64,000 bases of DNA from assembly GCF_003313465.1 (NCBI RefSeq), contig NZ_KZ845663.1, positions 419,911 through 483,910 of the forward strand. Direction: 5' to 3'. Shown here piece by piece: positions 29,789 through 54,295 of the stretch. Made by a program: the position numbers and the translations under genes. Within the stretch, counting starts at the first letter, position 1. Each line of letters opens with the position of its first letter. The notes under the pieces are model-generated. The model was not told the DNA's origin, ran no database searches, and was given only the letters and a program-made list of their open reading frames with translations. The stretch comes from Thermoflavimicrobium daqui (GTDB lineage Bacteria > Bacillota > Bacilli > Thermoactinomycetales > Thermoactinomycetaceae).

Positions 29789-31915
29789 TTAGCTATCTAA
29801 TTCCCACAATGAACTGGGAGTTCCATAGGAAGTCACATATAATTTATCTCTAGCACGTGTACTTGCCACATAGAGTAGAGAACGTTCCTGCTTCTCATAA
29901 TCTTCTAGACCCCCTTGTTCTAGATCTAAATACTTATCATATAAAGGAATGACATCTTTATTGACACCTGCGATAAACACAATCCGAAACTCCAATCCTT
30001 TACTGCGATGCATCGTTCCGCAATTGATTCCACTTTCAGTCTGAACAAAATGAGATTTGAGTGTAACAACGGGAATTTGATGGGATTGTAGACTCTTTTT
30101 TAACTTTTCTACAATCTGACTGGTTCTTGCTAAAATAGCAATCTCATTACATCGAATACCTTGGTCTAATAGATTCCTTACTTCATTGACTATAAATTGC
30201 TGTTCCTCATGTTCAGTCGTAAAATGAAGTCGCTCAGGTGGCTCCCCATAGATTAGTGATGTATCTTTTCCATCTAATTTTCCACCATCTAGATCGTCAA
30301 ACTCAAATCCTTGTAATCGTTTGACAGCTTGTTCGCGAATCTGCTCTGTCGTTCGATAGTTAATGCGTAAACGTTTTGAACGCTGTCCTCGAATATTAAT
30401 CCCACAAAGTCGTAATACCACATGATGAGAATCAATTCGTTGATGAGGATCTCCTACAATAAATAAATCATTCATTTTCTTTGGAACCAAGGCACGAAGT
30501 AATTTAAATGCTTCCATGTGAAAATCTTGTGCCTCATCAACTACTGCACAGCGGTAGACAAAAGTACCTGGATTTTGTTCAAGCCATGTTCGCGCTATAC
30601 GTAATATATCTACAAATTCATACCACTTTAACTTGTCCATTTGTTGGCGTACAAAACTTACAACCTGCCAAACTTTTTCTCGTTCACGAGAGGAGATACG
30701 TATACCTCTTCCTATACGTGGGATATGTGCATACTCTTCCCATGTTTGAATACCATGATTTTGAATAACATGGATATACTCTTGAATAACAAAATGCAAT
30801 TTTTCAACCGGATAACCTGTTTCTTGACACGATTTGATCCAAATTTCTTTCATATCCATAGCTTCATTAATGATCTTATTAATAGGCAGTTTGACCAGTT
30901 GATAGATTATTCTTTTGGCTAATTGATCAATCGGTATAACATCAATTTGATTAAACTCTTGTTCCGTACACATGGTTCGTAAACATTCCTTTAAATAGTC
31001 AGCCAGATTAGAGTTATATGTAGTTACTAATATTTTTTCTTGTGGCTTTAGTATATTTCGTACCAAACGCCGGGCGCGATGCAAAGCGACGACAGTTTTT
31101 CCTGTACCCGCTCCTCCCAACACCCGAACAGGACCTAAATAATTTTTTTCTACTAAAACTTTTTGACTTGGATGAAGAAAAATCCGCCATTTTTCCAGCG
31201 GTTTCGTTAAAATCTCATTTAATTGTTCATCATCCGATACGACCACAATATGCCTACTAGAATGAACACTTTTGATCGCTTTCTCAAATGCTGTTGCCTC
31301 TTTGGTCTGATTCGCTAATTGTTGCGCTTCCACTTGTAATTCTTCCATAAATCTGACTACTTCTTCATATGCTTCCCCATGCGCCAAATATTGTAATGCT
31401 TCGATAGCATCTGAAGGAATCTTTCCTTTTTTTTGTTCCAGCTCTTGGATTGTTTTTATTTGCTGTACTTCTGCGACTAATTCACTAGGAACGCCTAATG
31501 TTCTTAGTTGTTTATCAGTTAAGGATGTAAATAAACCATACGTATTAGCAGACACATCTTGTATGAATGACTCATTCGCTTCCTCCAATGACCACATTTG
31601 GATAACTCCAGTCTGTGGGTTTACTGTGAACCGTTTACGCTTAGCCCAACGATATGCTTCGTCATGATGATCTACCCATACTAGAAGCATCGTATCACTT
31701 TTTTCTGGGCGAATGGCGATTGCACGATATGTATGATTAACTCGAATCGAATAAACTCGTGGATCCACAGCCTCTTTATAACGTTCTAAATTCAAACTAG
31801 AATAAAAGGAATCTTCACGCAATTTTCTGATCATTTCTTGGGTACGCTTTTGTTCTGCTTTTGGTAACTTGGAAAAAGCTTCTAAGAAGGTATCTTGAAT
31901 TGCAATAGTTTGCAT
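29789..31915 (-). CDS. UvrD-type SF1 helicase with N-terminal RelE/ParE-like domain
   Basis: 708 residues. Residues 1-95 look like a RelE/ParE-superfamily toxin fold (LREDSFYSSLNLERYKEA, then VYSIRVNHTYRAIAI and LVWVDHHDEAYRWAKR). A helical linker leads to a complete SF1A ATPase: Walker A GGAGTGKT (about 267-274), VVDEAQDFHMEAF, IVGDPHQRI, RLRINYRTTEQI, TMHRSKGLEFRIVFIAGV and LLYVASTRARDKLYV. Start is ATG 31915 after GGGAGG. It may unwind DNA or R-loops; whether the N-terminal fold cuts mRNA or only binds is unknown. It is 211 bp downstream of the reverse transcriptase on the same strand. Confidence 0.85.
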   Translation of the reverse strand: MQTIAIQDTFLEAFSKLPKAEQKRTQEMIRKLREDSFYSSLNLERYKEAVDPRVYSIRVNHTYRAIAIRPEKSDTMLLVWVDHHDEAYRWAKRKRFTVNPQTGVIQMWSLEEANESFIQDVSANTYGLFTSLTDKQLRTLGVPSELVAEVQQIKTIQELEQKKGKIPSDAIEALQYLAHGEAYEEVVRFMEELQVEAQQLANQTKEATAFEKAIKSVHSSRHIVVVSDDEQLNEILTKPLEKWRIFLHPSQKVLVEKNYLGPVRVLGGAGTGKTVVALHRARRLVRNILKPQEKILVTTYNSNLADYLKECLRTMCTEQEFNQIDVIPIDQLAKRIIYQLVKLPINKIINEAMDMKEIWIKSCQETGYPVEKLHFVIQEYIHVIQNHGIQTWEEYAHIPRIGRGIRISSREREKVWQVVSFVRQQMDKLKWYEFVDILRIARTWLEQNPGTFVYRCAVVDEAQDFHMEAFKLLRALVPKKMNDLFIVGDPHQRIDSHHVVLRLCGINIRGQRSKRLRINYRTTEQIREQAVKRLQGFEFDDLDGGKLDGKDTSLIYGEPPERLHFTTEHEEQQFIVNEVRNLLDQGIRCNEIAILARTSQIVEKLKKSLQSHQIPVVTLKSHFVQTESGINCGTMHRSKGLEFRIVFIAGVNKDVIPLYDKYLDLEQGGLEDYEKQERSLLYVASTRARDKLYVTSYGTPSSLWELDS

Positions 31916-32026
31916 TACTTTTCCTCCCTTCGCTATGATCTGGTAGTGTTATACCTTCAGAAATTACTAAAATATACAATGATCCTCTTCTATGTTAGAT
32001 TATAAATGATTTTCGCTTCGAAGGGA

Positions 32027-32115
32027 GAGGTTTATCCATTTACGAGAATTTACTTTTTGATAGATAAGGTTGCTTGGTACGATTTTGATTTTCAATCAAA
32101 TTATGCAACATACTG
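32027..32115. repeat. Possible decayed copy of the MITE-like repeat
   Basis: It begins GAGGTTTATCCATTT and ends CAATCAAATTATGCAACATA, sharing the right-end TTATGCAACA of the element at 54613-54755. The interior is not clearly similar. It lies between the reverse transcriptase and the helicase. Confidence 0.25.
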
Positions 32116-32126
32116 TGGTAATTGGT

Positions 32127-33644
32127 TTAGTGATCATATCCAAGTGATCGAAAGCTAGCCATCGTTACCTGATTAAACGGAGACATCGGATCATAAAACT
32201 GAACGTGGTGTTTTGCTAAATGTTGAAAAAACGGATGTTCTATCCTTCCTTGTAACCATCCTTTCTGTACTCCCTCATATTGGAGAAGCCAGTCATTTTC
32301 AGACCATCCATTGGTTAGCTGTTGTTCCCATCTCTCTTTTGTAAGCCCTTTTAATAACCCTAAATGAGATAAATCAAGTGCTAATAGTACCACAAATGGA
32401 TTTGTGATCATCGATAAGCCTTGCCCAAGTTGTTCTGGTAAAGTTAAATTTAAACACTTACATAGCCATAATGCCCAAACCAACTCAAAGTCATGCTGAT
32501 ACTGAAGACACTCTTGAATCGAACGACTTAATACTCTTGTAATTCGTTTTTGATCTATCGGCATTTTTTTACGTTGGTAATAATTAAAAAGATCTACGAT
32601 CAATGGATAAGTATTCGATACATCCATCCAAATTCTAAGTAACCAACTTTCATAGAGCTCCCAGTTTTCCAAGTGTAATTGATCTGGAATGGATTTTTTT
32701 AGCGCATACTTCATAATGGCGGGATTCTGATATTTTTGATATAATTCATATGCTTTGTGAAACAAATTAAAAAAATCGACACGTTGTTCCTCAGCTTTTT
32801 TTGAAGAAATCTTAAATAAATCGAGCTCAACCTTCCATGATTCATAGAGCCTTTCAGGTAAATGAAACACCTTGGTTTTATGAGCATTCAAATCAAGCTC
32901 ATAATACGCTAATGTTTCCCGGATAGTAGTTAGAGCTTGTTCAGCTTCTCCCATCGTATCAAAAAATAAATAAAAATCATCTACATATCTCAAACCACGA
33001 ATATTGGCTATTTTATCTTGTAATCGCATATCAATCGCACAACCAATTAACTCTGCCATTACTAATGAAGTATCAGGCCCAATCGGAATCCCTAATGTTT
33101 GACCTTCTTGTGTATTTCTGACACCGATATCTAGACGATTCCCCAATAATTTCTTGTCTCGTCTTTTTTTCTTCCCTAACTCTTTAGTATGAAGCGCCCA
33201 AGGAATCACATGGGTATAGATGGTTGAATAAAAACGTGAAATATCAGTAAAAAGAGCTATTTTAGAGATAATGGAACTTCGTAAACGCTCCTCCATCACT
33301 TCTTGAAAAGAATAGGCTCTATCAATTGCTCGCTTTCCACTCAAATCTACTTTAGGATAACTAAAAGTAAGTGTTGATTTAGTACAAAATGCGTAAATTT
33401 GTTCCCACTCTTTGGCAATCTCTATGCTTAGTAAAATTTGATGGAATGGATGGGGTACATGTAAAATACGTCGATAATGTTTTTGCTTTGGAATTGAAAA
33501 AGTAATACTTTTACTTGGTTTTATGTTATATTTAATTGGAAGTTCATGGATACAGCTTCCTAAACTACGAGTGGTAAAAACTGGTGGAAGTTCTTTTGGA
33601 AAAAAGCCTCGAGATAGTAAGGATTCCAGTAAGTTCACTGACAA
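32127..33644 (-). CDS. Stand-alone reverse transcriptase, possibly defence-associated (UG/DRT-like)
   Basis: 505 residues. The polymerase core is clear: motif A LFTDISRFYSTIYTHVIPWA (catalytic Asp near 134), the GQTLGIPIGPDTS motif near 182-194, and motif C LRYVDDFYLFF with YVDD near 220-223. About 220 mostly helical residues follow, with no maturase or endonuclease motif, so it is not a group II intron RT. This layout resembles the unknown-group/DRT and Abi reverse transcriptases, several of which defend against phage; I cannot assign a class. I chose TTG 33644, 5 bases after GGAAGGA; the frame is open to 33665. Confidence 0.85.
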   Translation of the reverse strand: MSVNLLESLLSRGFFPKELPPVFTTRSLGSCIHELPIKYNIKPSKSITFSIPKQKHYRRILHVPHPFHQILLSIEIAKEWEQIYAFCTKSTLTFSYPKVDLSGKRAIDRAYSFQEVMEERLRSSIISKIALFTDISRFYSTIYTHVIPWALHTKELGKKKRRDKKLLGNRLDIGVRNTQEGQTLGIPIGPDTSLVMAELIGCAIDMRLQDKIANIRGLRYVDDFYLFFDTMGEAEQALTTIRETLAYYELDLNAHKTKVFHLPERLYESWKVELDLFKISSKKAEEQRVDFFNLFHKAYELYQKYQNPAIMKYALKKSIPDQLHLENWELYESWLLRIWMDVSNTYPLIVDLFNYYQRKKMPIDQKRITRVLSRSIQECLQYQHDFELVWALWLCKCLNLTLPEQLGQGLSMITNPFVVLLALDLSHLGLLKGLTKERWEQQLTNGWSENDWLLQYEGVQKGWLQGRIEHPFFQHLAKHHVQFYDPMSPFNQVTMASFRSLGYDH

Positions 33645-33998
33645 CTCATTCCTTCCACAATTCAATTAGATGCGAAAAAAATAAGGCAATTTCCTAGAAA
33701 AACGGCATAATTGATGGTTTTTTACCCTATTTTTTGTTACACTCTTCTCATATCGTTTTATAAACGGAGTAAGTTTTTAATTTCAATCTATTAGAGAGAA
33801 TAGTCAATATCTTCCTTCTAATTTGATATCCATATGCTCGTTTATTCATGTTCTACTTAACCTTAAGTCTTAAATGCTTTTTATACCTATGACATTTTCT
33901 TACTATTGCTCACCTCCTGTTATACCATATAATAAAAAGGGTTATTATTTTAACCGTTTTATTAGAACACGAGGTCAATCAGAAGAAAGGTGATATTC
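33645..33998. other. Divergent intergenic region between the reverse transcriptase and the kinase
   Basis: About 350 bp with no ORF. It holds the candidate kinase promoter at 33906-33933 and, near the reverse transcriptase, a T/A-rich stretch (33710-33770). RT systems often have a structured RNA beside the gene; I see no strong long hairpin here. Confidence 0.45.
33906..33933 (+). promoter_or_regulatory. Candidate sigma-A promoter for the Ser/Thr kinase
   Basis: TTGCTC (33906-33911), a 16-base spacer and TATAAT (33928-33933), about 65 bases upstream of the kinase start. Confidence 0.4.
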
Positions 33999-42669: not shown

Positions 42670-44136
42670 ATGAAAATAAGAAAACATTGGCTTTCAATTA
42701 CCGCTGTTACTGGCCTAGTGGTTACGAGTTTATTTTCGACAAACATATCATATGCCAATACAGCGTCAATGGATGAATCACCTGCATGGAGCAAGTGGTT
42801 ACAAAAAAACGCTTATCCCGTTAAGAAACTAGCTCCAAGTTCAAATGATCTGTACAAGGATTTGCGTTTTTTAAAGAAAGTACTCAAAGACAAAAGAGTC
42901 GTCCTATTGGGAGAAAGCTCCCATGGTGCAGCTGAATTTAACTCATCCAAAGTTAGACTTGTTCAGTATTTACATGAAGAGTTAGATTATGATGTAATCG
43001 CTTTTGAATCTGGACTAGCGGAGAATCATGCTGCTGATATCCACGCTTCAAAAAACACACCACTTAAAACCATGCAAGATGCTATCTTTGGTGTATGGCA
43101 TGCCGAAGAAACTCTACCCCTTTTCGATTATCTAAAGAAAGAAAAGAAAACGAAAGATCCACTTACATTAGCTGGTTTTGATATGCAGCCGATGGGTTCA
43201 TATCCAACGTTTCTTAAGGATTGGTTGACAAAAGTAGACCCATCGATGGCCGAGAAAGCATATCAAACAGAGATAAAATTCATAAACTATTATCATGGTA
43301 TCAACACTACTTTTGATCAATTTCAACAGGAAAAGCCGAAAATGATTTCCGAATATCAAGATATTATCAACTTTGTAAAAAAGCATAAGAAGAAACTATC
43401 TGCTATCTATCCACAAAATTCTAATCTGATCCAAGTAACCGAATATGCGCTAAAAGATCGGATCAATTCTACAGAAAAAATCATTGAAAAAAATCTACTG
43501 TTCAGCCAATATGTAAATGAAGGAAAATACGAAGAAGCACAAAAATACTTTGATGAGCTTTCGGTCTTACGTGATCAAGCTATGGCTAATCATCTAACTT
43601 GGTTAGCTGAAAAATTATATCCCAACAAAAAAATCATTGTTTGGGCGCATAATCTGCATATCCGTAAAGCAAATACCAAAGCCGAAAATCCGAATCGCAG
43701 CCCTGTTGTCAGTATGGGTGAACTCATTCCCGCACGCTTAAAGAAACAGTCCTATGTAGTTGGACTATATATGAACAAAGGGGTTTCTGCTCTTAATAAC
43801 AGAGAACCTGCTCCGGTACGTTATCCACACCCCTCAGGTAATTTAGAGTCCATCTTAAGTAAGTCAGGTCATCCCAACGTTTTTGTAGACCTAAAACAGA
43901 AGAATAAAAAATGGACTTCATGGATGTTTACCAAACGCCAAGCGTTAGACTGGGGAATGTGGGACGAAAAATTGGTTCCTTATGAACAATACGATGGAAT
44001 TTTATTCATCAATGAAGTTCATATGCCCAAATACATCCCCTATCAACAATCGAAAACTATGATGCAAAAGAATAAAAAGCCCTTGCCTGTATCTAAAAAG
44101 GATATTCTATATGAAACCTCTTTCATGAATAGATAA
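42670..44136 (+). CDS. Exported erythromycin-esterase-family protein
   Basis: 488 residues with a signal peptide (basic start, hydrophobic 10-24, likely cleavage after SYA near residue 30). The rest matches the erythromycin esterase superfamily: LLGESSHGAAEF (about 79-90) with the catalytic His, VIAFESGLAEN (about 115) and IVWAHNLHIRKANT (about 325). Some members hydrolyse macrolide lactones, others have unknown roles, so resistance should not be assumed. ATG 42670 follows AAGGGGG. Monocistronic; export distinguishes it from the cytoplasmic resistance enzymes. Confidence 0.85.
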   Translation: MKIRKHWLSITAVTGLVVTSLFSTNISYANTASMDESPAWSKWLQKNAYPVKKLAPSSNDLYKDLRFLKKVLKDKRVVLLGESSHGAAEFNSSKVRLVQYLHEELDYDVIAFESGLAENHAADIHASKNTPLKTMQDAIFGVWHAEETLPLFDYLKKEKKTKDPLTLAGFDMQPMGSYPTFLKDWLTKVDPSMAEKAYQTEIKFINYYHGINTTFDQFQQEKPKMISEYQDIINFVKKHKKKLSAIYPQNSNLIQVTEYALKDRINSTEKIIEKNLLFSQYVNEGKYEEAQKYFDELSVLRDQAMANHLTWLAEKLYPNKKIIVWAHNLHIRKANTKAENPNRSPVVSMGELIPARLKKQSYVVGLYMNKGVSALNNREPAPVRYPHPSGNLESILSKSGHPNVFVDLKQKNKKWTSWMFTKRQALDWGMWDEKLVPYEQYDGILFINEVHMPKYIPYQQSKTMMQKNKKPLPVSKKDILYETSFMNR

Positions 44137-44255: not shown

Positions 44256-45908
44256 TCAGATCATCTTCTCCTTATCAAATCCGATCGCCGTGAAATCATC
44301 GATATGAAATTCATGGACAAAAGGAGAGATTCTTAATGGTGACTCATCCACATAATATAAAAATACTCGTTTTCGTGCTCGAGTGATCGCCATATAGAGT
44401 AAATTCTTTTCTTCAACAATAAGTCGTTTCAGATCTGATTGATAATATTCATCATCTTTTCCTGCTTTTTGCTGTAAAACTTCTATTTTTTTCAAGAGTG
44501 GATAGGTTGATTGGGTAAATTGTAGAATAAACACATAGTCAAACTCAAGGCCCTTGACATGATGGATATCAGCCAGTAGGATGGGTTTTTTCTCCTCATT
44601 CGTCATCGACTTTTTCATATAGTCTTTTATATTTATAACATCTAGTTCTTGCTCTAGTGCCCGTAGAAGTGGGATGTGATTCATCTGATCTTGTTCTTCA
44701 TAACGATCGATCAAACAGATCGATGCATCTGGATCACGCATCTGGATCCAATGAATTTGGCTAACTATTTTTTGGACAAATTCTTTGATAGATGGGAAGT
44801 AGCCAATGTTAGGTAGCTCACCATTTCGTAGACTCGTAAGCTTAGGTTGACGCTCATACTCTCTATCTTCCAAGCGAAGGGCATTGGCAAATGCTAGAAT
44901 GGGTCGTGTCGATCGAAAATTTTGGTGTAAAACTCTGGTCTTATCACCATTCAATTGAAGTCCTAAGCTAGCATCCGAGTGCGGACTCATTTGATTGATG
45001 GGTTGTCTAGAATCCCCTGCAAGTACCAGCATTTCTTTACTTAGTTGCACTAACGCTTTTATTTGCATGGGTTGCAACTCATGTACATCATCAACCAATA
45101 CGAAATCATAGTGAAGGGACTGGGGGATTTGCTTAAGATAATATAATAGTAATAAAGCATAATCCTCAAGATCTATCTCCCTCTGATATTGGGTATGCAT
45201 TTCTTGTTGATAGAGCGTAAACAAATGATAAATGGTTAGACGTTGACTTCTAGTTAAATGAGTACACTTTTCCCGCCCAACCCTCTCTACTTCTAGATAA
45301 TCATCTTTACGAAGAAGTCCATTCGCTTTCATCCACAAAAACTCCTCCAGTAAAAACAAAGGGGTATGAGTATGATCCAACTCTTGTTCCGCTGATAGTC
45401 CTCTGTACCATTCCGATTGAATGAAGCGTTCACGTAGCATTTGGATACGATAAAGTCGTGTATCTGGGACTTTCTTTATATCTAGAGAGAAAGTGTTAGG
45501 CGGAACTACTATCTGATATCCAATTATTCTAAGTAAATTAGCTGCCATCTCATAAAAAGTACACAGCTCAAAATCATGTTTTTCTATTAGTAGTGTAAAC
45601 TCAGGACAAAGTGAAAGACGTTGATAAATATCTTCTTTAAGAGTTGGTGTTCGTGTAATAAATAAAAACCTCTTTCGCTCCTTATATTCATTCATCATCT
45701 TTAACATTTTCAGCATTAAGGTTACACTTTTCCCATTGCCAGCAGCCCCTTGAATATAAAGCTGATCACTTTTTTGCTCCAAAATCATTTGTTGTTCCTT
45801 TGAAGGCTGAATCTCTGGCAATCTATTAGGCATCTCAACATAAAATTGCCAAGCTTTAGCTGAACGTAACCAGAAGTCTTTCTGTTCCTCTTTACATACT
45901 TCGCTCAA
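44256..45908 (-). CDS. UvrD-like SF1 helicase, third gene of the helicase operon
   Basis: 550 residues. SF1 motifs are complete but divergent: Walker A QGAAGNGKS (about residues 57-65), a motif II reading LVDDVHELQP instead of the usual DEAQ, motif III VLAGDSRQPI, motif IV LHQNFRSTRP, motif V DIHHVKGLEFDYVFIL and motif VI LLYMAITRARKRVFL. I chose TTG 45908, 9 bases after AGAGGGGG; an in-frame ATG at 45935 has no ribosome site. Either start overlaps the AddB-like gene, so the three genes are coupled. Likely the second motor of a DNA-processing complex. Confidence 0.82.
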   Translation of the reverse strand: MSEVCKEEQKDFWLRSAKAWQFYVEMPNRLPEIQPSKEQQMILEQKSDQLYIQGAAGNGKSVTLMLKMLKMMNEYKERKRFLFITRTPTLKEDIYQRLSLCPEFTLLIEKHDFELCTFYEMAANLLRIIGYQIVVPPNTFSLDIKKVPDTRLYRIQMLRERFIQSEWYRGLSAEQELDHTHTPLFLLEEFLWMKANGLLRKDDYLEVERVGREKCTHLTRSQRLTIYHLFTLYQQEMHTQYQREIDLEDYALLLLYYLKQIPQSLHYDFVLVDDVHELQPMQIKALVQLSKEMLVLAGDSRQPINQMSPHSDASLGLQLNGDKTRVLHQNFRSTRPILAFANALRLEDREYERQPKLTSLRNGELPNIGYFPSIKEFVQKIVSQIHWIQMRDPDASICLIDRYEEQDQMNHIPLLRALEQELDVINIKDYMKKSMTNEEKKPILLADIHHVKGLEFDYVFILQFTQSTYPLLKKIEVLQQKAGKDDEYYQSDLKRLIVEEKNLLYMAITRARKRVFLYYVDESPLRISPFVHEFHIDDFTAIGFDKEKMI

Positions 45909-48423
45909 TCGTAAATTCCCCCTCTGTACATGCATAAAGATAGGGACATGTCTTGCAATGATCTCCTACTTTTGCTTCAACATGTTGCTGAAAGATCGAA
46001 GAAATCCTTTCATCAAGCTGCTCACTAACCTCACATATAGTCTGTTCTTGATCGTTCGTTTCTAAGCTTTGAAACTGGATCAATGCTTTGGGATACTCTA
46101 TTCCTTGAAAATGTAAAGATTCACGCAAGGGCGAGTGAGATACCATCTCGATCAGATCACTTTTTTGTTGATCGGTCCATTGTGGAAACAAAGGATATAC
46201 CATTTTACGCACCATTTCTTTCCCACCTGCTTGTTGAGAGAGCAATGATCCAAGCAAAGCAAATACTTTTTGTTGATGAATATCATCTGTATATATTGGA
46301 TGCAATTCTAGCAAACTATTATAGAAGAATTTCCGCGAGCATACTTCCTGATCTGTCCAATAAACCTGAGGGATTTGCTCAATAAAATGATCCAGTCGAG
46401 CATATAAGCGGTGATCTTTCATATCTACATTTGAAACATCTACTTCATAATTTAAATCCCAAGTTAGTAATTCTTTTCCATTTCCATACAATTGAAAGAG
46501 AAGCTGAAGATATGAACTTTCTTCATCTTGTTCATGTAAGCCACGAATCCAGCTGACAATTAATTTTTTACGATGAAACACCAATAGAAAAAAAAGACGA
46601 AACAGCAAGAGATTCTCTTTTAATTTATCTGCCAAATAATGAATCATAACACTGTGAGTACGCTTAGCTGCTTGTGGATTTTGCTCGCCAAACTGTTGGC
46701 GAATCGACTGAATTAACCACGACCAACTCAATATACTTGGCAAACACCCTCTCTGTTGAACTTGGTCAATTCCTCTCTTAGATAGGTCGGTCAGATGAAT
46801 CTCATCGGCTGTCAACGTTAGTCCTTCAATCTGTGTAAAACTACTTAAGCTTCCCCATTGATCCCTGTCTTGATCTTGTTCACAAAAGGAAAGGAAAAAT
46901 TGGCGTAAGTCAGCTCTTGTGACTTCCCAGTCTACAAATAAAGGGGTATAAAGAATCTCTTCGATCTGCTCTTCAACATCGACATCTATTTTTCTCCTAT
47001 TTCTCATTTGCTTCCAATATTTTCGTAGTTGATCCATATGTTGTTTGATAGATATCTCTTTTCCTTCTTCTGGGAGAAGTTCCTTGATCATATCTTCTAA
47101 ATTCGTTATGGCATTTTGAATTTGGCGTATCGTTATCGGATGACGATCGAGATGTACATAGGGGAATACTCGAAAGGGGTTTAATAAATATTGTTTAATT
47201 TGATTCCCTTCTATCTTGTCTTCCGCTAACTGATCAAATTGCTTGCTTACATCTAACAACTCTTCCAAAGACCGAAATCGTTCCTTTACTTCTCGGATTG
47301 TAGAAATTCCATCCATATAACTTTCCAAATCGATAAGTATTGGTAAAATGTCTTTCCCCAATCCATCATCTAATTCAACCCAGCCTGAAGTCATACATTC
47401 GACTAAAGTTGTATAGTCGAGATAAATTTCATGTTGATCTCGACTAGACTGATAAAAATAATATAAGAATTTCCCTTCAGGATAAGACAGAATATTTGAT
47501 TCAAGTCTGGTAGACAGGCCATCATGAAAAGCTTGACTCATCTGTGGATAAGAAGTTGTGACATATTGACGTGTCTGTGCTCCATCTTGGTGCCAATCCA
47601 AATAATGCTGAAAGTGTGCAAGTGACTCAAAGAAGTGAAACTCGATTTTTAATGGATCAAATAGATTTCCACTTCTTTTTTGCTCCAAAAAATGGACCCA
47701 TCTCCGTCCCTTTGTAAGTGAGATCGACTGCTTATTAACACCCCACTGATCAACTGATTTTCTAGAAACTTGTTCATATAACTCTTTCCAGCCTAATGAC
47801 ACCATCGGATATTGTGGATAATAGGGAATGCGAAAGATAATAGGAATCTTTGCAGCACGTAACTGCCAAAAAAACATCATCTGATCAGCCGAAATTTGAG
47901 ACATTTGATAAACATAAACTCGTTCAAGCTGGGGATGTATTTTTTTATAGAGTAATTTGGCTGGACATTCTTTTCTCTTTTTACATAGTTTTTGTATCTG
48001 GGGATCTTGATGTAGAAATGCTATCGTTTTTCGAAATAAAAAAGCTTCTTCTGCTTCCTGTGTTACAGGGCTTAAGTCATTTAAATCCAATTCTACTAAG
48101 TAGCGAAAAGCCTTGACCCACTCTCCGATATGCTCTTCCAAGTAGCGATATTGTTTAGGATCCGTTACCTCTGCCTGAAGATAAGTACGGATTTTCGAAG
48201 CTAACATCAATTCGGTTAGTCCATACCAGTCTCCATATAATATTCGCTGTAAACGATCATAGGTATAGATATGAAATGAATCCCCTTGCTTTTTGGCATA
48301 ATCCTTCAAATAGCTAGCTAAGGTGGATTCTGATACGATATGAATCTCATTTTCTTTAAAAATAAGTTGTGAAAAATAGCTATAGGGATCTTGGTATGTC
48401 TCAATACTAAACAACGTATTCAT
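45892..48423 (-). CDS. AddB-like protein with C-terminal Cys cluster
   Basis: 843 residues. I see no Walker A; the N-terminal region (about 25-140) reads like a degenerate UvrD-type domain, as in AddB. The last 30 residues contain GDHCKTCPYLYAC, the C-x2-C-x5-C of the AddB/Cas4 iron-sulphur cluster, with an earlier Cys (EVCSRKFF, near 705) as possible fourth ligand. The usual RecB-nuclease D-Y-K motif is not visible, so the nuclease may be degenerate or absent. It starts by ATGA overlap with the upstream helicase stop; the frame is open to 48450. Probably a scaffold or DNA-binding partner of the two helicases. Confidence 0.7.
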   Translation of the reverse strand: MNTLFSIETYQDPYSYFSQLIFKENEIHIVSESTLASYLKDYAKKQGDSFHIYTYDRLQRILYGDWYGLTELMLASKIRTYLQAEVTDPKQYRYLEEHIGEWVKAFRYLVELDLNDLSPVTQEAEEAFLFRKTIAFLHQDPQIQKLCKKRKECPAKLLYKKIHPQLERVYVYQMSQISADQMMFFWQLRAAKIPIIFRIPYYPQYPMVSLGWKELYEQVSRKSVDQWGVNKQSISLTKGRRWVHFLEQKRSGNLFDPLKIEFHFFESLAHFQHYLDWHQDGAQTRQYVTTSYPQMSQAFHDGLSTRLESNILSYPEGKFLYYFYQSSRDQHEIYLDYTTLVECMTSGWVELDDGLGKDILPILIDLESYMDGISTIREVKERFRSLEELLDVSKQFDQLAEDKIEGNQIKQYLLNPFRVFPYVHLDRHPITIRQIQNAITNLEDMIKELLPEEGKEISIKQHMDQLRKYWKQMRNRRKIDVDVEEQIEEILYTPLFVDWEVTRADLRQFFLSFCEQDQDRDQWGSLSSFTQIEGLTLTADEIHLTDLSKRGIDQVQQRGCLPSILSWSWLIQSIRQQFGEQNPQAAKRTHSVMIHYLADKLKENLLLFRLFFLLVFHRKKLIVSWIRGLHEQDEESSYLQLLFQLYGNGKELLTWDLNYEVDVSNVDMKDHRLYARLDHFIEQIPQVYWTDQEVCSRKFFYNSLLELHPIYTDDIHQQKVFALLGSLLSQQAGGKEMVRKMVYPLFPQWTDQQKSDLIEMVSHSPLRESLHFQGIEYPKALIQFQSLETNDQEQTICEVSEQLDERISSIFQQHVEAKVGDHCKTCPYLYACTEGEFTIERSM

Positions 48424-50864
48424 TCCCCCATTTTTAATAGATCCATCCATGTATTCGGCAGGTTGCTTCGCTTATTTTCCTCTATCGCATGAACAAAAAC
48501 TTGCTTACGGACACGAGTCAATGCGATATATAGTAAACGTGCCTCCTCGCCTAATATCTCTTTCATCTCTTGAGGCTCTCTTTCCATGAAATAGGTATTG
48601 CGTACTAATAATGATGATAATAAAAAACGATAATTTAACCTCCATTCCTCATTTTCCTTATGTAGGAAAACTACGGTACGGCTGTCGCTCACCAATGGAT
48701 CATAAGTATAAGGTAGAATAACATGATCAAACTCATTTTCCTTTGCTTGTTGAATAGTCATGACATGGAAACGGTGTCCTGTATATTCTGTTGATAATGG
48801 ATCGAGCATTTCTTGATCATCTGTCTCCATATATTTGCGTAGTACTCTTTCCATTCCATACAACGTAGCTGCTGACTTTGAAAAGTGTTTACGTAAAAGA
48901 TAAAAAAGCTTTTCCACTCCCATCTGGTATTCCATCCTTCTCGCTCGTGCCTCTTTCACAAAGTCTTGGATATCACGATTAGGATGGATCGTTTTCATTC
49001 TCGTAAGAAAACGTTGACTATATACTTCATGTGGGCTCAAATCCTTTATAATCATTCTTAATATAGAAAAAATAGGCTTCCTTTGTGCTAGCTCTTGCAT
49101 CTGCCTCCAATAAATAAAATCGGGTTGTTTTTCTAATAAGGAAAGAATTACTTTTTGATCTGGTTCAAATTGCTCAATCAACTGGTCATTAGATAAAGTA
49201 TTGACACCATAAGAAGACCGATGTAATGCGTATGCAAAAGATGGATTTTCCGGAAAAAGGAGAAAGCGAACTAAAATATACATTTCTCGCACAGGCAGAC
49301 TTCGATAAAAATTTCCTAATCTACTTCTTTCGCAAAAAAAGCCAAGTTGTTCACACTGTTTGATCACTTCTTGTATTTGGTAGTCAAATCGTACCAAAAT
49401 AGCTGTATCTGTTCCTCTTAGCTGTTCGAGTAGCTGACGAAAGGCTTGATTCTCCGATTCAGCATACCCCATCGCAAAGGGACCAAAGACAATACCCTTG
49501 TTTTTATTACCAATTGGGCGCATCGATTGTAACTGATCGTATATCGAAGCGGGAAATGATGCTAGTTGATTCCCCCATTTCATGACCAATGTATTTAATT
49601 GTTGAACTAACCTCGGGGTATTCCGATAATTTTTAGTAAAATGGATCGTTGTTACAGATTCACCTTGTTGAATGAGTCTTTTTTTCAACGCCGAAAAGGA
49701 AGTATATTCTGTACCATGAAAACGATACATACTTTGTTTGGCATCTCCTGTGATCGTTAAAGTACACTGAGTTGCAAGTTGTAATCGGAACAGAAAATCA
49801 ACTTGAACTGGACTTACATCTTGAAACTCATCGATCAACAAGTAACGCAAATTCCATTTCTTCTTTAATCGCTTCATCACGACCATTCGTTCTAGATAGC
49901 GAACAACATCTTGTATTTCCCACTGCTTTAGTTCCTTTTTTTCTGTTTCCAAATGCTGATGTACATATTTAAGTACAAATTTGGCTAAAGGAGCAAATCC
50001 AACTTGATCATTTCCAAAATGGAGTTTCACGTGGAATAAACTCCCCAAATATTGACATTCCAATAGTTCATTCATTTTTAGTAATAGCTCTACCAAATTT
50101 TCGCGCGGAGTTTTAGTAAACGGACGGAAAGCTTCTGGACTTACTTGTGTATACTCACGAATTGCCTCGAACATTAACTCCTTCTTCCGCTTACGAAAAC
50201 TACGTAACTTCTCTGTAACTGGGATAGGCTGATGAATTCCCGCCTTTTCAAATAAGGTTTCAACAAATGCTGATAGGGTGGAAATATGTAGATGTTTTAC
50301 CTCATCGATCCACTTTAAATAAATAGGTTGATAGGTAACCTCATAGTAATCACGAAACCGTTGAATGATCCGCTGCCTTATTTTTATTGCAGCTTGATGA
50401 GTGAAAGTAATAAAGGCAGAATGGAAAAATAAATCCTCCATTCCCATATGTTTTAAAAATAAAAAGCGTTCGATCATCCATGTTGTTTTCCCAGTACCTG
50501 CACCAGCTGATATGATCAAATGCTGGTTTGCAGGAGAATGCTCAGCTTCATATAGTTTGCTAGGAAAATCGGTATGATGACAAACATAGTCATATATCTG
50601 TTGATTTGTCACTTTCCCATCTATAAAGGAGACGGAAGCCCCTTGATAATCGGTTTGATAGGGAACTTTCCACCACCCAAATAGCTTCCTTTTTTTAGCT
50701 TCTTTCCATTCATCCCAATCTTCATATTCCTTAAGTGAATCCATTGTGAATAAGTACACTTTAATTCCGTTATAAACATAATCATCGAGTAAAGACTCTA
50801 TAAAATCATCTGTTAAATGATTCCTAAAAATAAAAAGTGAATGTTTGGGTTGTTGATCCAACAT
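48420..50864 (-). CDS. UvrD/AddA-like SF1 helicase, first gene of the helicase operon
   Basis: 814 residues. An unusual N-terminal region of about 120 residues, rich in Trp and Asp, precedes the SF1 ATPase. Motifs: Walker A SAGAGTGKT (about 123-131), Ia ITFTHQAAIKIRQR, II LIDEFQDVSP, III ITGDAKQSMYRF, IV NYRNTPRLVQQL, VI LLYIALTRVRKQVFV. Motif V reads IQQAKENEFDHVILP rather than the H-x-[SA]-KG-x-E form, a notable change. ATG 50864 follows GGGAGGGG. The stop overlaps the next start. It is shorter than AddA (about 1230) and lacks its C-terminal nuclease. Confidence 0.85.
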   Translation of the reverse strand: MLDQQPKHSLFIFRNHLTDDFIESLLDDYVYNGIKVYLFTMDSLKEYEDWDEWKEAKKRKLFGWWKVPYQTDYQGASVSFIDGKVTNQQIYDYVCHHTDFPSKLYEAEHSPANQHLIISAGAGTGKTTWMIERFLFLKHMGMEDLFFHSAFITFTHQAAIKIRQRIIQRFRDYYEVTYQPIYLKWIDEVKHLHISTLSAFVETLFEKAGIHQPIPVTEKLRSFRKRKKELMFEAIREYTQVSPEAFRPFTKTPRENLVELLLKMNELLECQYLGSLFHVKLHFGNDQVGFAPLAKFVLKYVHQHLETEKKELKQWEIQDVVRYLERMVVMKRLKKKWNLRYLLIDEFQDVSPVQVDFLFRLQLATQCTLTITGDAKQSMYRFHGTEYTSFSALKKRLIQQGESVTTIHFTKNYRNTPRLVQQLNTLVMKWGNQLASFPASIYDQLQSMRPIGNKNKGIVFGPFAMGYAESENQAFRQLLEQLRGTDTAILVRFDYQIQEVIKQCEQLGFFCERSRLGNFYRSLPVREMYILVRFLLFPENPSFAYALHRSSYGVNTLSNDQLIEQFEPDQKVILSLLEKQPDFIYWRQMQELAQRKPIFSILRMIIKDLSPHEVYSQRFLTRMKTIHPNRDIQDFVKEARARRMEYQMGVEKLFYLLRKHFSKSAATLYGMERVLRKYMETDDQEMLDPLSTEYTGHRFHVMTIQQAKENEFDHVILPYTYDPLVSDSRTVVFLHKENEEWRLNYRFLLSSLLVRNTYFMEREPQEMKEILGEEARLLYIALTRVRKQVFVHAIEENKRSNLPNTWMDLLKMGE

Positions 50865-51210
50865 AACCCCTCCCTACATAGTCCAACAATGATATCTCTA
50901 TCTAATAATCATATAAAGTATAGAATATAGATCGCAAAAATAATACATTACACAATAAATTCCTTTAAAAACATAGATCATTCACGACGTTACTATACGA
51001 GCTTGATGCCCCGTCTCGTTTTCCTTTTCCCATTGAACGACTTTTCCTCGCTCTTAACAAAATAAGCTAAAATTGATATTTCATGTCATTATTGACCTTT
51101 ACACAATGTCAACGTTTATGATAACAAAAAAACCGAATGATCCAAGATGGATCACTCGGTAAAATTGTAAGGGTGAATAGGGAGACGGAATATACTTAGG
51201 CTTTTTTGAC
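50865..51210. other. Gap between the helicase operon and the mtn operon
   Basis: About 345 bp of AT-rich sequence holding the mtn terminator (51129-51159) and, presumably, the helicase-operon promoter. No ORF or structured RNA is visible. Confidence 0.55.
51129..51159 (-). terminator. Terminator of the mtnWXBD operon
   Basis: CCGAATGATCC (51133-51143) and GGATCACTCGG (51149-51159) form a stem with one mismatch, followed on the minus strand by a T-run. Confidence 0.8.
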
Positions 51211-51744
51211 TTACCTCACCTCCTCTTCTTTCTCATAAATAGGTACCCAACCTTCTTTGGTTTTGAAAATACGAATAGCTACGACTTGACGATCTTCCAT
51301 CAAGGTGAAGTAATGCCGATAATCGGCTGGTACAGAAATCAGATCCCCTGGCTCTAGCTCTACATCAAAGAAACGGCCATTTTTACCTTGAATCGCGAAA
51401 ATACCATGTCCACTTACAATAAAACGGACTTCATCTTCGGAATGATGATGTTCAGCTAGAAAATTTTTCAGTAATTGCTCAAGATTCGGTGTCGCTGGAG
51501 AAAGTGAGATAACATCTTCTGTGATATACCCATAACGAGCAGATAAGTCATCAATTTCTTTACGAAATACTTGAATGATCTCTGCTTTTTCTTCATCTGA
51601 ACATTGATAGTTCTCACGTAAATGTTCTGGGAGCTTATCTATATCCCATCGCTCGTAAATAACCCCTTGTGAATCAAGATAAGAAATTACTTCTTCTAAT
51701 TTTTCCAAGCGTTCTCCATTATCGTGAAAACGTAATTGTGCCAT
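51211..51744 (-). CDS. mtnD: Acireductone dioxygenase
   Basis: 177 residues of a cupin that oxidises the acireductone of methionine salvage; with Fe2+ it yields the keto-acid precursor of methionine. Metal ligands are visible in AEHHHSEDEVRF (His, His, Glu; about residues 98-109) and ADYRHYFTL (His, about 143). ATG 51744 follows GGGGATG. Last gene of mtnWXBD, 14 bases after mtnB. Confidence 0.95.
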   Translation of the reverse strand: MAQLRFHDNGERLEKLEEVISYLDSQGVIYERWDIDKLPEHLRENYQCSDEEKAEIIQVFRKEIDDLSARYGYITEDVISLSPATPNLEQLLKNFLAEHHHSEDEVRFIVSGHGIFAIQGKNGRFFDVELEPGDLISVPADYRHYFTLMEDRQVVAIRIFKTKEGWVPIYEKEEEVR

Positions 51745-51758
51745 TGTTTTTCATCCCC

Positions 51759-52400
51759 TCAATATGATGATTTTTGTAGTACTGAAAGTTGTGAAGCTAA
51801 TTTTATTTTTAAATGGTATGAAAAGATAAATTCCAAAGCTTCCAAATGTTTCTTCGCCTCAAAGCCATTTTTGCCCCAGACAGTTAGCCCATGATTACGA
51901 ATTAACACGGCTTTAGTTTCTGGTTTAATCACCTTTCCACACTCTTGTGCTAATCGAGAAATATCTGCATAATTTTCTACGATTGGGATCGTAATCTCAC
52001 CATTCTCTTCCCAAATGCCAAACGCTTTAATAAGTTCCTGTCCCTTCAAAGTTATGGAACCATTGGATGCATATAATTCAGAGATTACATTATTATCCAC
52101 TGTATGTACATGGAGACAACAGCCCGCATTGGTTAAACGATAGACTTCACAATGGATTAAGGTTTCAGCAGATGCCCTTAGATTGGTTTCTTGTAGTGGA
52201 CGGCCTTCTCCATCCACCAACAAGAAGTCTTCATCGGTTCGTTTACGCTTATCTTTCCCACTTGCTGTAACCAAAAAGGTAAGAGGCTCGTCATTTACTT
52301 TGATTGACAAATTCCCACTGGTTCCTAGAAACCAATCTCTCTCTGCTAGCTCATCTTTGATATCTGCTAACTCATTCCATCGCTGTTCCAGTACACTCAT
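51759..52400 (-). CDS. mtnB: Methylthioribulose-1-phosphate dehydratase
   Basis: 213 residues of the class II aldolase/adducin family. It dehydrates 5-methylthioribulose-1-phosphate to the diketo compound used by MtnW. Zinc ligands appear in LHVHTVDNN and in [10 protein letters not shown]; the substrate loop [12 protein letters not shown] is near residue 23. ATG 52400 follows AGGAGG and overlaps the end of mtnX by 4 bases. Confidence 0.95.
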
Positions 52401-53059
52401 CTAACCTCCTCCTTCCTACTTAATCCCTCAATCACATCATAAAAGGTGGTAAAAGGTGTATATGAAATCCCATTTTCTTGACATTTTTTGATTAAGAAGT
52501 CTCGCGCATAGACTTGATCCGCTAATTTAGCTGCTTGTAAGTCTGTAATGGAATCTCCAATAACAATTCGTTCATATCGGTTAGGGTCAAATTTACGTAA
52601 AATGGTCGGTTTACAGCAACCGCAATCATTGGTGCAAGGTTCAAGACATGCATATGGCCAAGAAATTTGAATCGTTTCCCCTGAAAAGTCGCTACCATTA
52701 CAATAGATCTGCTCCGGATCGACAAGACCTTCCAAAATCGGATAAACAAAAAAGTCTATACCACCACTAACGATATACAAAGGGATTTTTTTCTCATTGG
52801 TAAAGCGAACAAAGTCACTAAATCCTTCACGAATGGTAGTTTGATCGAATACGAACTGGATAATCTGCTCTTTTTGTGATGAAGGAAGGAGAGAGAAAAG
52901 TTGCCCTACTCCTTTACGTATGGAAATCTTTTGCTCTAAGATCTGGTCTTTGATCTCTTCCCATCCTGGTGGAGCAAATTGCTTCATGATCGCGATAATA
53001 TTATCTTTCACTGTAATCGTTCCATCAAAATCACAAAAAATAATTGGACTGCGACCCAT
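52397..53059 (-). CDS. mtnX: 2-Hydroxy-3-keto-5-methylthiopentenyl-1-phosphate phosphatase
   Basis: 220 residues of a HAD phosphatase. The nucleophile motif [13 protein letters not shown] lies at residues 8-20, followed by IVSGGIDFF and the late acidic motif [12 protein letters not shown]. It removes phosphate from the enol product of MtnW; together MtnW and MtnX replace the single-enzyme MtnC of other bacteria. It also has a Cys-rich CTNDCGCCK stretch seen in Bacillus MtnX. Three bases separate it from mtnW. Confidence 0.95.
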
Positions 53060-53062
53060 GGA

Positions 53063-54295
53063 TCATCTTCCTCCCCACAACGACAATGCCAGACTTAATT
53101 CTTCATGCTCTTGTACCCAGTGATCGATAGGAACTTCTCTTAACACACCATCAATGATCTGCCGAAAAGCTTTGCCCCCTGCAACTGCTCCACTTGGATG
53201 ACCATGTACTCCTCCACCAGCGTTGATCACTGAGTCAATCCCAAAGTCTTGGATTAATAAAGGTACTAATCCTGGATGAATTCCAGCTGATGGTACTGGG
53301 AAAGATTGTTTGATATGCGGATTTGGACGTGTTAATTCATTGGCAATACCTAATGCCGTCTCTTTTTTAAGAGCAACGCTTCCATAGGGGGATGGGAACA
53401 ATACAAGATCCGCACCAGCATAACGCAAACATTTTCCAAGCAGTAAAGCATGATGAACCCCATACAATGCTGAGGAGGTAAGAGCACCTGAAACAGCTGG
53501 ATGAGCTAAAATAGGAATCGGGATTTCAGGGTCTTCCGCTAGAGCTTGTAGAACATCTAGACTGTAAGCAAATACATTAAATAATAAGGCATCTGCACCT
53601 AGTTCAACAGCTCGTTTGGCTTTTTCAATTAATTCAAAAGTAGAACCTGATAAATTCACGGCATATAGTGTTTTCTTCCCTGTCTCTGCTTCGACTTTTT
53701 GTAAAACTTCTTTGGCAACAATGATTCGAGAGTCAAAAGGAGTAATAGGATTATCAAATAAAATTTCATCATCTTTCACTAGATCGACTCCGCCTAAAGC
53801 CTGTGCGCGAAGTTGCTCACCAAAGCAGGAGAGATCTCGTCCTATGATGCTTTTAAAGATACTCATCAACAAGGGCCGATCATAAACTCCCAAAACTTCA
53901 CGAATTCCATCAATTCCAAACTTAGGGCCAGAGAAGTGTTCCAAGAGATCACTTGAAAAATCCAAATCGATCAGTTTAATCTCGCCATCAAGGGATAGCT
54001 TTCCAAACACCGTCGTTAGTATCGCTGGAAAGTCTATGGTAAAGTTTGCTGAGGGGTATGCCACTTGGATCAAAGCTTTTTTCCGACTCTCCCCAAAATA
54101 CCGATTAATTTCATCATCTTCCGATAGCTCCTGTATATTAAGGACTTGCCCTTTATGCTTTTGAAGTTGTTCTTTTTCTAAGTCTGGTAAATTTGTCCAA
54201 GTACCCACAGTAAGTCCTAGTGCAATTCCTTCAGCTTTTTTGGCGAAATTGCCATCCTTATCATAAACTTGATAAGTTGCAATTACTTGGCCCAT
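53063..54295 (-). CDS. mtnW: 2,3-Diketo-5-methylthiopentyl-1-phosphate enolase, RuBisCO-like
   Basis: 410 residues, a form IV RuBisCO-like protein that enolises its substrate and does not fix CO2. The carbamylated Lys motif reads [12 protein letters not shown] (about residues 168-179). Other landmarks are the NLSGSTFEL stretch and [20 protein letters not shown] near the C-terminus. AAGGAG precedes the ATG. First gene of mtnWXBD, directly controlled by the S-box terminator upstream. Confidence 0.96.

Follow-up and report, generated by a model that had tools for sequence, protein, structure and literature searches.

A nuclease-depleted AddAB-related helicase trio in Thermoflavimicrobium daqui and its frequent linkage to restriction genes

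The window analysed here is a 64,000-nucleotide stretch of the Thermoflavimicrobium daqui genome (contig NZ_KZ845663.1, positions 419,911 to 483,910) and contains a trio of minus-strand genes, A, B and C, which encode two superfamily 1 (SF1) helicases and a protein related to AddB. The original prediction, made from the window alone, described the trio as a 'split and slimmed AddAB-like machine' with two motors around an iron-sulphur protein. Profile and fold comparisons support both the kinship with AddAB and the arrangement of two motors around an iron-sulphur-type protein, but the nucleases do not appear to have been redistributed among the subunits, as A ends after helicase motif VI and the nuclease core of B seems to have been deleted. 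The three genes are located as follows.

48420..50864, minus strand: gene A, an AddA/RecB-class SF1 helicase of 814 residues without C-terminal nuclease and with an extra N-terminal alpha/beta domain (open reading frame, Pfam, fold)
45892..48450, minus strand: gene B, an AddB-like protein of 852 residues (843 from the internal Met10) without Walker A and with the nuclease core apparently deleted
44256..45935, minus strand: gene C, a UvrD-like SF1 helicase of 559 residues (open reading frame, Pfam, NCBIfam)

The open reading frame list confirms that the three genes overlap at their ends, by 31 and 44 bases. The lengths first given for the products need partial revision: the 814 residues of A stand, the 843 residues of B apply only if translation starts at Met10, which homologues favour over the 852-residue version, and the 550 residues given for C would require an internal start in a frame of 559.

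Gene A is recognised by its UvrD-helicase and UvrD_C domains (Pfam) and can be divided as follows.

50565..50864, minus strand: N-terminal domain of A, about residues 1-100, of no recognised kind
50484..50507, minus strand: motif I (Walker A) of A, containing GAGTGKT
49818..49832, minus strand: motif II of A, DEFQD, intact

The AlphaFold model of A, based on 16 sequences, has a predicted local distance difference test score (pLDDT) of 84.6 and a predicted template modelling score (pTM) of 0.79, and its best Foldseek match is AddA (4cei_A, E 1.6e-23). VIA-align places Rep, UvrD and PcrA chains at the top by Z score (1uaa_A, Z 23.6, root-mean-square deviation (rmsd) 10.2, 569 residues aligned), but RecB and AddA chains match A over more residues and with lower rmsd (RecB chain 6sjb_B, Z 20.6, rmsd 5.0, 630 aligned; AddA 4ceh_A, Z 20.4, rmsd 5.2, 674 aligned). 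The structural alignments end at AddA residue 924, which we take to fall short of the AddA nuclease domain, and A itself terminates about 30 residues past motif VI with no PDDEXK match in Pfam. Motifs I to VI are all present in the window protein and intact save motif V, which reads KENEFD where the other 17 A proteins have KG. The alignments to AddA and RecB begin only at model residues 82-102. The N-terminal 100 or so residues of A match no Pfam family; a phospholipase-D-like half was considered for this domain and found no support in Pfam. A search of viral structures with the A model listed helicases among its named rows and no specific relative. One distant A protein has a NERD nuclease domain, recognised at E 1.5e-9 when the N-terminal piece is scanned by itself and unlisted in the full-length scan. 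This suggests that a cutting function can be attached to A. Three other distant A proteins have N-terminal extensions of about 200 residues without a Pfam match.

Gene B (P0002) lacks Walker A and ends in a C-x2-C-x5-C cluster (CKTCPYLYAC), both as predicted, with the amendment that the cluster is only part of a set of four cysteines, the first of which, C704, is located 127 residues upstream.

46339..46341, minus strand: Cys704 of B, the first of four presumed iron-sulphur ligands, invariant in 14/14 proteins
45928..45957, minus strand: Cys832, Cys835 and Cys841 of B, the C-x2-C-x5-C cluster, invariant in 14/14 proteins

When 14 B proteins with identities as low as 16% are aligned, only 16 columns are invariant, and the cysteines C704, C832, C835 and C841 account for four of these. 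A Walker A pattern occurs as an isolated match in two of 16 B proteins. At the level of single sequences P0002 gives sub-threshold Pfam matches only, including one to PDDEXK_1 that covers residues 800-841 and scores 10.1 bits where 22 are required, no NCBIfam match up to E 1, and PADLOC matches only at E 0.3 and 0.5; solved structures searched by sequence contain no convincing relative (best E 0.9), and no full-length family model was found in the databases searched. Five distant B proteins were compared with PADLOC, of which three match Cas4 or Aga Cas4-like models at the iron-sulphur end, one a methylase model at chance level and one nothing. A phage origin of B was considered and rejected, as the phage collection holds no match to P0002 at E 1e-5.

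The relationship to AddB emerges from comparisons of profiles and folds. The B profile matches that of 19 AddBs of the same order with Prob 95.7 and E 1.1e-8 over 366 columns, compared with Prob 0.1 for a reversed-profile control; the AddB profile used 19 of 22 open reading frames, two having been dropped for want of the cysteine pattern and one as antisense. In VIA-align, AddB chains take the first five places for the B model (Z 15.5-15.9, rmsd 12.8-14.1, 514-549 residues aligned), followed by UvrD (Z 12.9) and RecC (Z 11.9). The gap between the first cysteine and the triplet measures 112-139 residues in all 14 B proteins versus 259-276 in AddBs, a range taken from the five of the 19 whose first cysteine could be placed by pattern, and 272 in the AddB of the same genome; the nuclease core of B is about 140 residues shorter than that of AddB. 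No D, E or K is invariant between the B cysteines, and no column there is acidic in more than 10 of the 14 proteins. Since the gap is shortened, catalytic-type residues D, E and K are nowhere invariant and the cysteines are, the sequences indicate that the nuclease core of B has been deleted and the iron-sulphur lock kept. By analogy with AddB, the four cysteines would bind an iron-sulphur cluster, and the trio offers a natural test of the role of this AddB domain without the nuclease.

Several results weigh against this picture of B. Comparison of its profile with a single AddB gave no match (Prob 0.1), and the AlphaFold model, from six sequences, is weak (pLDDT 64, pTM 0.52), with residues past 662 mostly under pLDDT 50. 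Plain Foldseek puts RecC first (7mr1_C, E 1.5e-8, TM 0.28), and there is no AddB chain among the 50 matches listed. One lysine column (12/14) and one histidine column (13/14) are conserved between the cysteines, one B is annotated as 'PD-(D/E)XK nuclease family protein', and in Pfam the iron-sulphur end of some relatives reaches or passes the PDDEXK_1 cut-off of 22 bits: 22.4 bits for the B of a second trio on contig C14 of the same genome, 26.5 for genome G013, and 24.0 and 22.3 for C-terminal pieces from G142 and G093. The PDDEXK_1 matches listed for B relatives cover the profile end only, at positions 186 or later of 247.

Gene C contains UvrD-helicase and UvrD_C domains (Pfam) and matches pcrA, HelD, rep, uvrD and like models in NCBIfam, with no recD model among the 11 families listed. 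Two of its helicase motifs differ from the family.

45078..45092, minus strand: motif II of C, DDVHE, where the 13 remaining proteins of the 14 in the C family read DE(V/A/M)QD
44994..45017, minus strand: motif III of C, GDSRQPIN, against a Q(R/K)IY ending in the same 13 proteins

As motifs II and III are both degenerate, the ATPase of the window C is probably weakened or lost and the motor impaired. In a separate observation, genome G161 carries a tandem of two different C-type helicases (L051, 5747-7465 and 7481-8902), which represent both C subfamilies.

The trio coexists with a normal AddAB. Canonical addB and addA genes of T. daqui are located on a separate contig (C3:189762-196291), which contradicts the possibility that the trio is the only AddAB of the genome, and a second trio on contig C14 (G000_C14) is followed by a type I restriction-modification (R-M) operon. 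The distribution is patchy, in agreement with the accessory nature first proposed: B is found in six of 42 species of the order, in 16 genomes of a class-wide sample of 398 (10 of 145 genera) and, among 299 genomes of the phylum, convincingly in T. daqui only, with a weak 44-residue match in G471 (E 2e-4). The weakest B of the class sample (G363, E 8.3e-4) gains support from the A encoded next to it (E 7e-120). Searching contigs with P0002 alone gave nothing; with the alignment as query, relatives were found in Kroppenstedtia guangzhouensis, Shimazuella alba, S. kribbensis and a Thermoactinomycetaceae metagenome-assembled genome. One trio and one A-B pair reside on plasmids, of Geobacillus zalihae and Exiguobacterium acetylicum (G347) respectively, and the trio is in this sense mobile.

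Linkage was counted over 19 loci, 18 of them in 16 genomes of the class sample plus the Geobacillus plasmid, and a restriction or modification gene is present within about 10 kb in 13. Type I genes occur at G000_C14, G001_C5, G013, G022 and G041, and the order includes five loci whose type I R-M genes adjoin the trio or are separated from it by one gene. HsdR is near the trio in G142, where the contig then ends, Mrr in G038, and an MTES_1575 helicase-nuclease with GmrSD in G283. Cytosine methylases are found with Vsr and a BpuJI/AlwI-like enzyme (G161), as a pair with a BpuJI/AlwI-like neighbour judged by eye (G141), with a MutH-type enzyme and Vsr (G363), and with Vsr and AlwI (Geobacillus plasmid), while G093 has an AAA_5 ATPase with McrC-type PF10117. 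In eight loci the methylase gap is 0.3-4.5 kb; each of these genomes has between one and three strong loci for the methylase family concerned, and the chance of one within 10 kb is 0.010-0.026 per locus, figures that are a description rather than a fair test, as the eight loci were picked for having a methylase, one family was taken per genome and weak extras in G041 were omitted. A C-family gene adjoins in 14 of 18 visible loci. Over 16 loci the distances among A proteins and those among B proteins show a correlation of 0.96, which suggests that the two proteins co-evolve as one unit, with part of the correlation coming from shared ancestry alone.

Other counts speak against a fixed restriction-linked trio. 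No restriction gene was recognised in five of the 19 loci (the window, G001_C70, G347, G153 and G183), their neighbours having been partly scanned and those of G183 left unscanned, and G118 offers only a gene with a zinc-binding MZB domain. C is not adjacent in four of the 18 visible loci (G001_C70, G347, G183 and G153; the contig of G118 ends), and the distances of C follow those of A and B less closely (0.77 for A-C and 0.72 for B-C, 12 loci). Defence islands gather unrelated genes, and linkage alone is no proof of joint action.

Some of these loci show features of their own. A protein of about 530 residues is encoded between the trio and hsdM in two of them (L015, 13353-14936; L021, 1940-3544); the L015 version has a C-terminal type I specificity domain (PF01420), mad5 as its best PADLOC match and an N-terminal part without a Pfam match. 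In G041 (L020) it is the trio itself, next to a type I R-M operon, that is broken into fragments. In Exiguobacterium (L054, 5148-10195; L056, 11309-16323) an A-B pair without C is followed by a 660-680-residue protein, a large ATPase and an HNH nuclease, which possibly form a further defence system; in L054 the 660-680-residue protein has no Pfam match and the ATPase is HerA-like.

The copy in the window is a poor example of the system. Both it and the G001_C70 copy are located at an mtn locus, and they form one clade with support 1.0 in the A and the B trees. Among 18 A and 14 C proteins, motif II is broken only in the window C and the G001_C70 A, and no C-family gene was found beside G001_C70, where a different UvrD-type helicase occurs further on. 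In a comparison of these two genomes, the A copies linked to restriction genes share 68% identity (branch sum 0.53), against 40% (1.58) for the A copies at the mtn locus. This faster divergence and the broken motif II fit relaxed or changed selection on mtn-locus copies without a restriction partner, and the window copy appears to be an orphaned, fast-evolving paralogue. As its C motor is probably impaired, it is probably a remnant or has taken on a changed, perhaps structural, role. The broken motifs, the missing C gene, the low identity and the absence of the trio from the mtn locus of a third genome of the genus (G002) would also suit a decaying relic with no present function. We consider this rather unlikely, since a long functionless gene would be expected to hold stops and the three frames remain open across 6.6 kb despite their divergence, with A retaining most of its motor motifs; the open frames may point to some function.

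It is proposed, with an even chance in our estimation, that the trio is an accessory, nuclease-less motor of the AddAB/RecBCD class that acts on DNA ends created by a partner restriction enzyme. The three proteins would form a complex in which A is the 3'-5' motor, B an AddB-like scaffold whose iron-sulphur lock holds the remnant of a nuclease domain, and C a second SF1 motor in place of the RecD of RecBCD. Moving as a module near different restriction systems, the trio would load on double-strand ends cut by the partner enzyme in foreign DNA and unwind or strip them, so that the cut DNA could no longer be rejoined or repaired and would be open to further attack by the partner enzyme, by cellular single-strand nucleases or by the NERD domain fused to A in one relative. 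RecBCD is described as degrading viral DNA cut by restriction enzymes and as being blocked by the phage protein Gam (available part of PMC12707154). The trio is an AddAB-derived module linked to restriction; confidence is high in its anatomy and kinship, moderate in its defence role and low in its mechanism. The restriction genes near 13 of 19 loci, the patchiness and the separate addAB support the defence link suggested at the outset, and the anti-phage action proposed with it would follow by inference only. Somewhat less probably, the trio may represent a previously unreported class of three-subunit DNA-end motors, AddAB minus both nucleases with an iron-sulphur lock, which plug into unrelated kinds of restriction (types I, II and IV) and turn single cuts into loss of invader DNA. 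If so, bacteria would have evolved a separate, dedicated, mobile and nuclease-free end-processing engine for defence, which could explain why a phage may be killed by one cut although it blocks the enzyme of the host.

An alternative is a stand-alone, Gabija-like defence system: the trio would respond to unusual DNA ends or to replication intermediates, and its place in defence islands would reflect gene clustering only. The five loci without a recognised restriction neighbour and the wide variety of partner types would agree with this, as would the GajB models that score among the highest in PADLOC for A and C, although such matches are generic for UvrD-like motors. For Gabija, it has been proposed that phage proteins which deny RecBCD access to DNA ends license the system (available part of the preprint PMC12407980). 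The window trio, however, has no nuclease domain or toxic effector recognised by Pfam, NCBIfam or PADLOC, and the close type I R-M genes in the five loci of the order mentioned above also speak against independence; we regard this alternative as unlikely. Gabija, DRT and other named systems were rejected as identities for the trio, the PADLOC matches to A and C being of the generic UvrD type.

Equally improbable in our view is a role in self-protection, in which the trio would be a dedicated repair partner that channels chromosome breaks from mistaken restriction cuts into recombination. After EcoKI breaks RecBCD degrades the chromosome unless recombination rescues it (PMC12707154, in its available part). 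Unwinding without degradation would suit repair, and two trio-bearing Shimazuella genomes show no AddA/RecB; the T. daqui genome, on the other hand, has a normal addAB. To our knowledge most restriction systems do without a dedicated repair partner, which also counts against this role. That the trio simply replaces AddAB/RecBCD in housekeeping repair is extremely improbable and was rejected for T. daqui, as the shared protein class and the two Shimazuella trio carriers without recognisable AddAB (G013 and G022) are outweighed by the separate addB and addA, the restriction of B to six of 42 species of the order, the loss of both nuclease domains and five genomes (G020, G004, G005, G007 and G014) that show neither B nor AddAB. 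In these five and in G013 and G022, no protein of AddA/RecB length and no AddB was seen.

The proposed restriction-linked end motor resembles several known systems in part. Like AddAB, it has an A that matches AddA and a B that matches AddB by profile and fold, with the four-cysteine signature and no ATP site in B. Unlike AddAB, a conserved two-subunit housekeeping pair, it consists of three genes, with the added C, is often beside restriction genes, occurs in six of 42 species of the order and coexists with a normal addAB in T. daqui; its A is without the C-terminal PD-(D/E)XK nuclease and, judging by sequence, its B without the nuclease core. RecBCD likewise has three genes, two motors and a motor-dead scaffold, and RecC leads the Foldseek list for B, but trio C is UvrD-like rather than a RecD-like SF1B helicase, A lacks the nuclease of RecB, and B keeps iron-sulphur-type cysteines and scores higher in VIA-align with AddB (Z 15.9) than with RecC (Z 11.9). 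AdnA and AdnB both carry nuclease domains; as AddAB-class dual proteins they are matched by both the A and B models, whereas no nuclease domain was found in the trio. Gabija shares the use of UvrD-like motors in defence, but the trio has no OLD/TOPRIM (GajA-type) match in Pfam and is flanked by an esterase gene and mtnD; we know of no AddB-like protein in Gabija. The closest published concept found is a protein that joins a UvrD helicase to a module of the Cas4/AddB type and is encoded next to type III R-M or Dcm-Vsr genes. It differs in being a single chain with a Cas4-like nuclease, no AddB scaffold or second motor being described in the available part of the source (PMC5704561), whereas A and B are separate genes in all 18 loci in which both are readable, the broken G041 being set aside. 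An AddB-like nuclease/helicase with an inactive helicase has been reported beside CRISPR-like repeats (available part of PMC10910872), and AddB is not mentioned in the part of PMC12839542 that was available. No description of the A-B-C gene set was found in the open-access literature searched.

The surroundings of the window trio agree with the original prediction in that Pfam identifies an esterase-family gene on one side and mtn genes on the other.

42670-44136: erythromycin esterase family gene (PF05139, Pfam), downstream of the trio
51132..51160, minus strand: terminator-like hairpin between mtnD and gene A (consensus match only)
51211-54295: mtn genes upstream of the trio, namely ARD (mtnD), aldolase II, HAD and RuBisCO-like (Pfam)

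From the hairpin upstream of gene A, the trio transcript may be distinct from the mtn genes; terminator-like sites in the region are near chance frequency (5 found, 4.0 expected), and promoter-like sites for the trio operon are at chance level (25 found, 25.0 expected). No restriction gene was recognised among the other open reading frames of the window, which were judged by eye with eight checked in Pfam, and no hsdMSR genes were seen by eye in the window. Elsewhere in the window a UvrD-like helicase of 708 residues (29789-31915) adjoins a 512-residue protein with a reverse transcriptase domain (PF00078, 32127-33665). The G001 relative of this helicase has a sub-threshold ParE-like match at its N-terminus, and by eye G002 (L099) carries a helicase and reverse transcriptase pair which resembles that of the window. 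The pair at 29789-33665 is possibly a reverse transcriptase-helicase defence pair.

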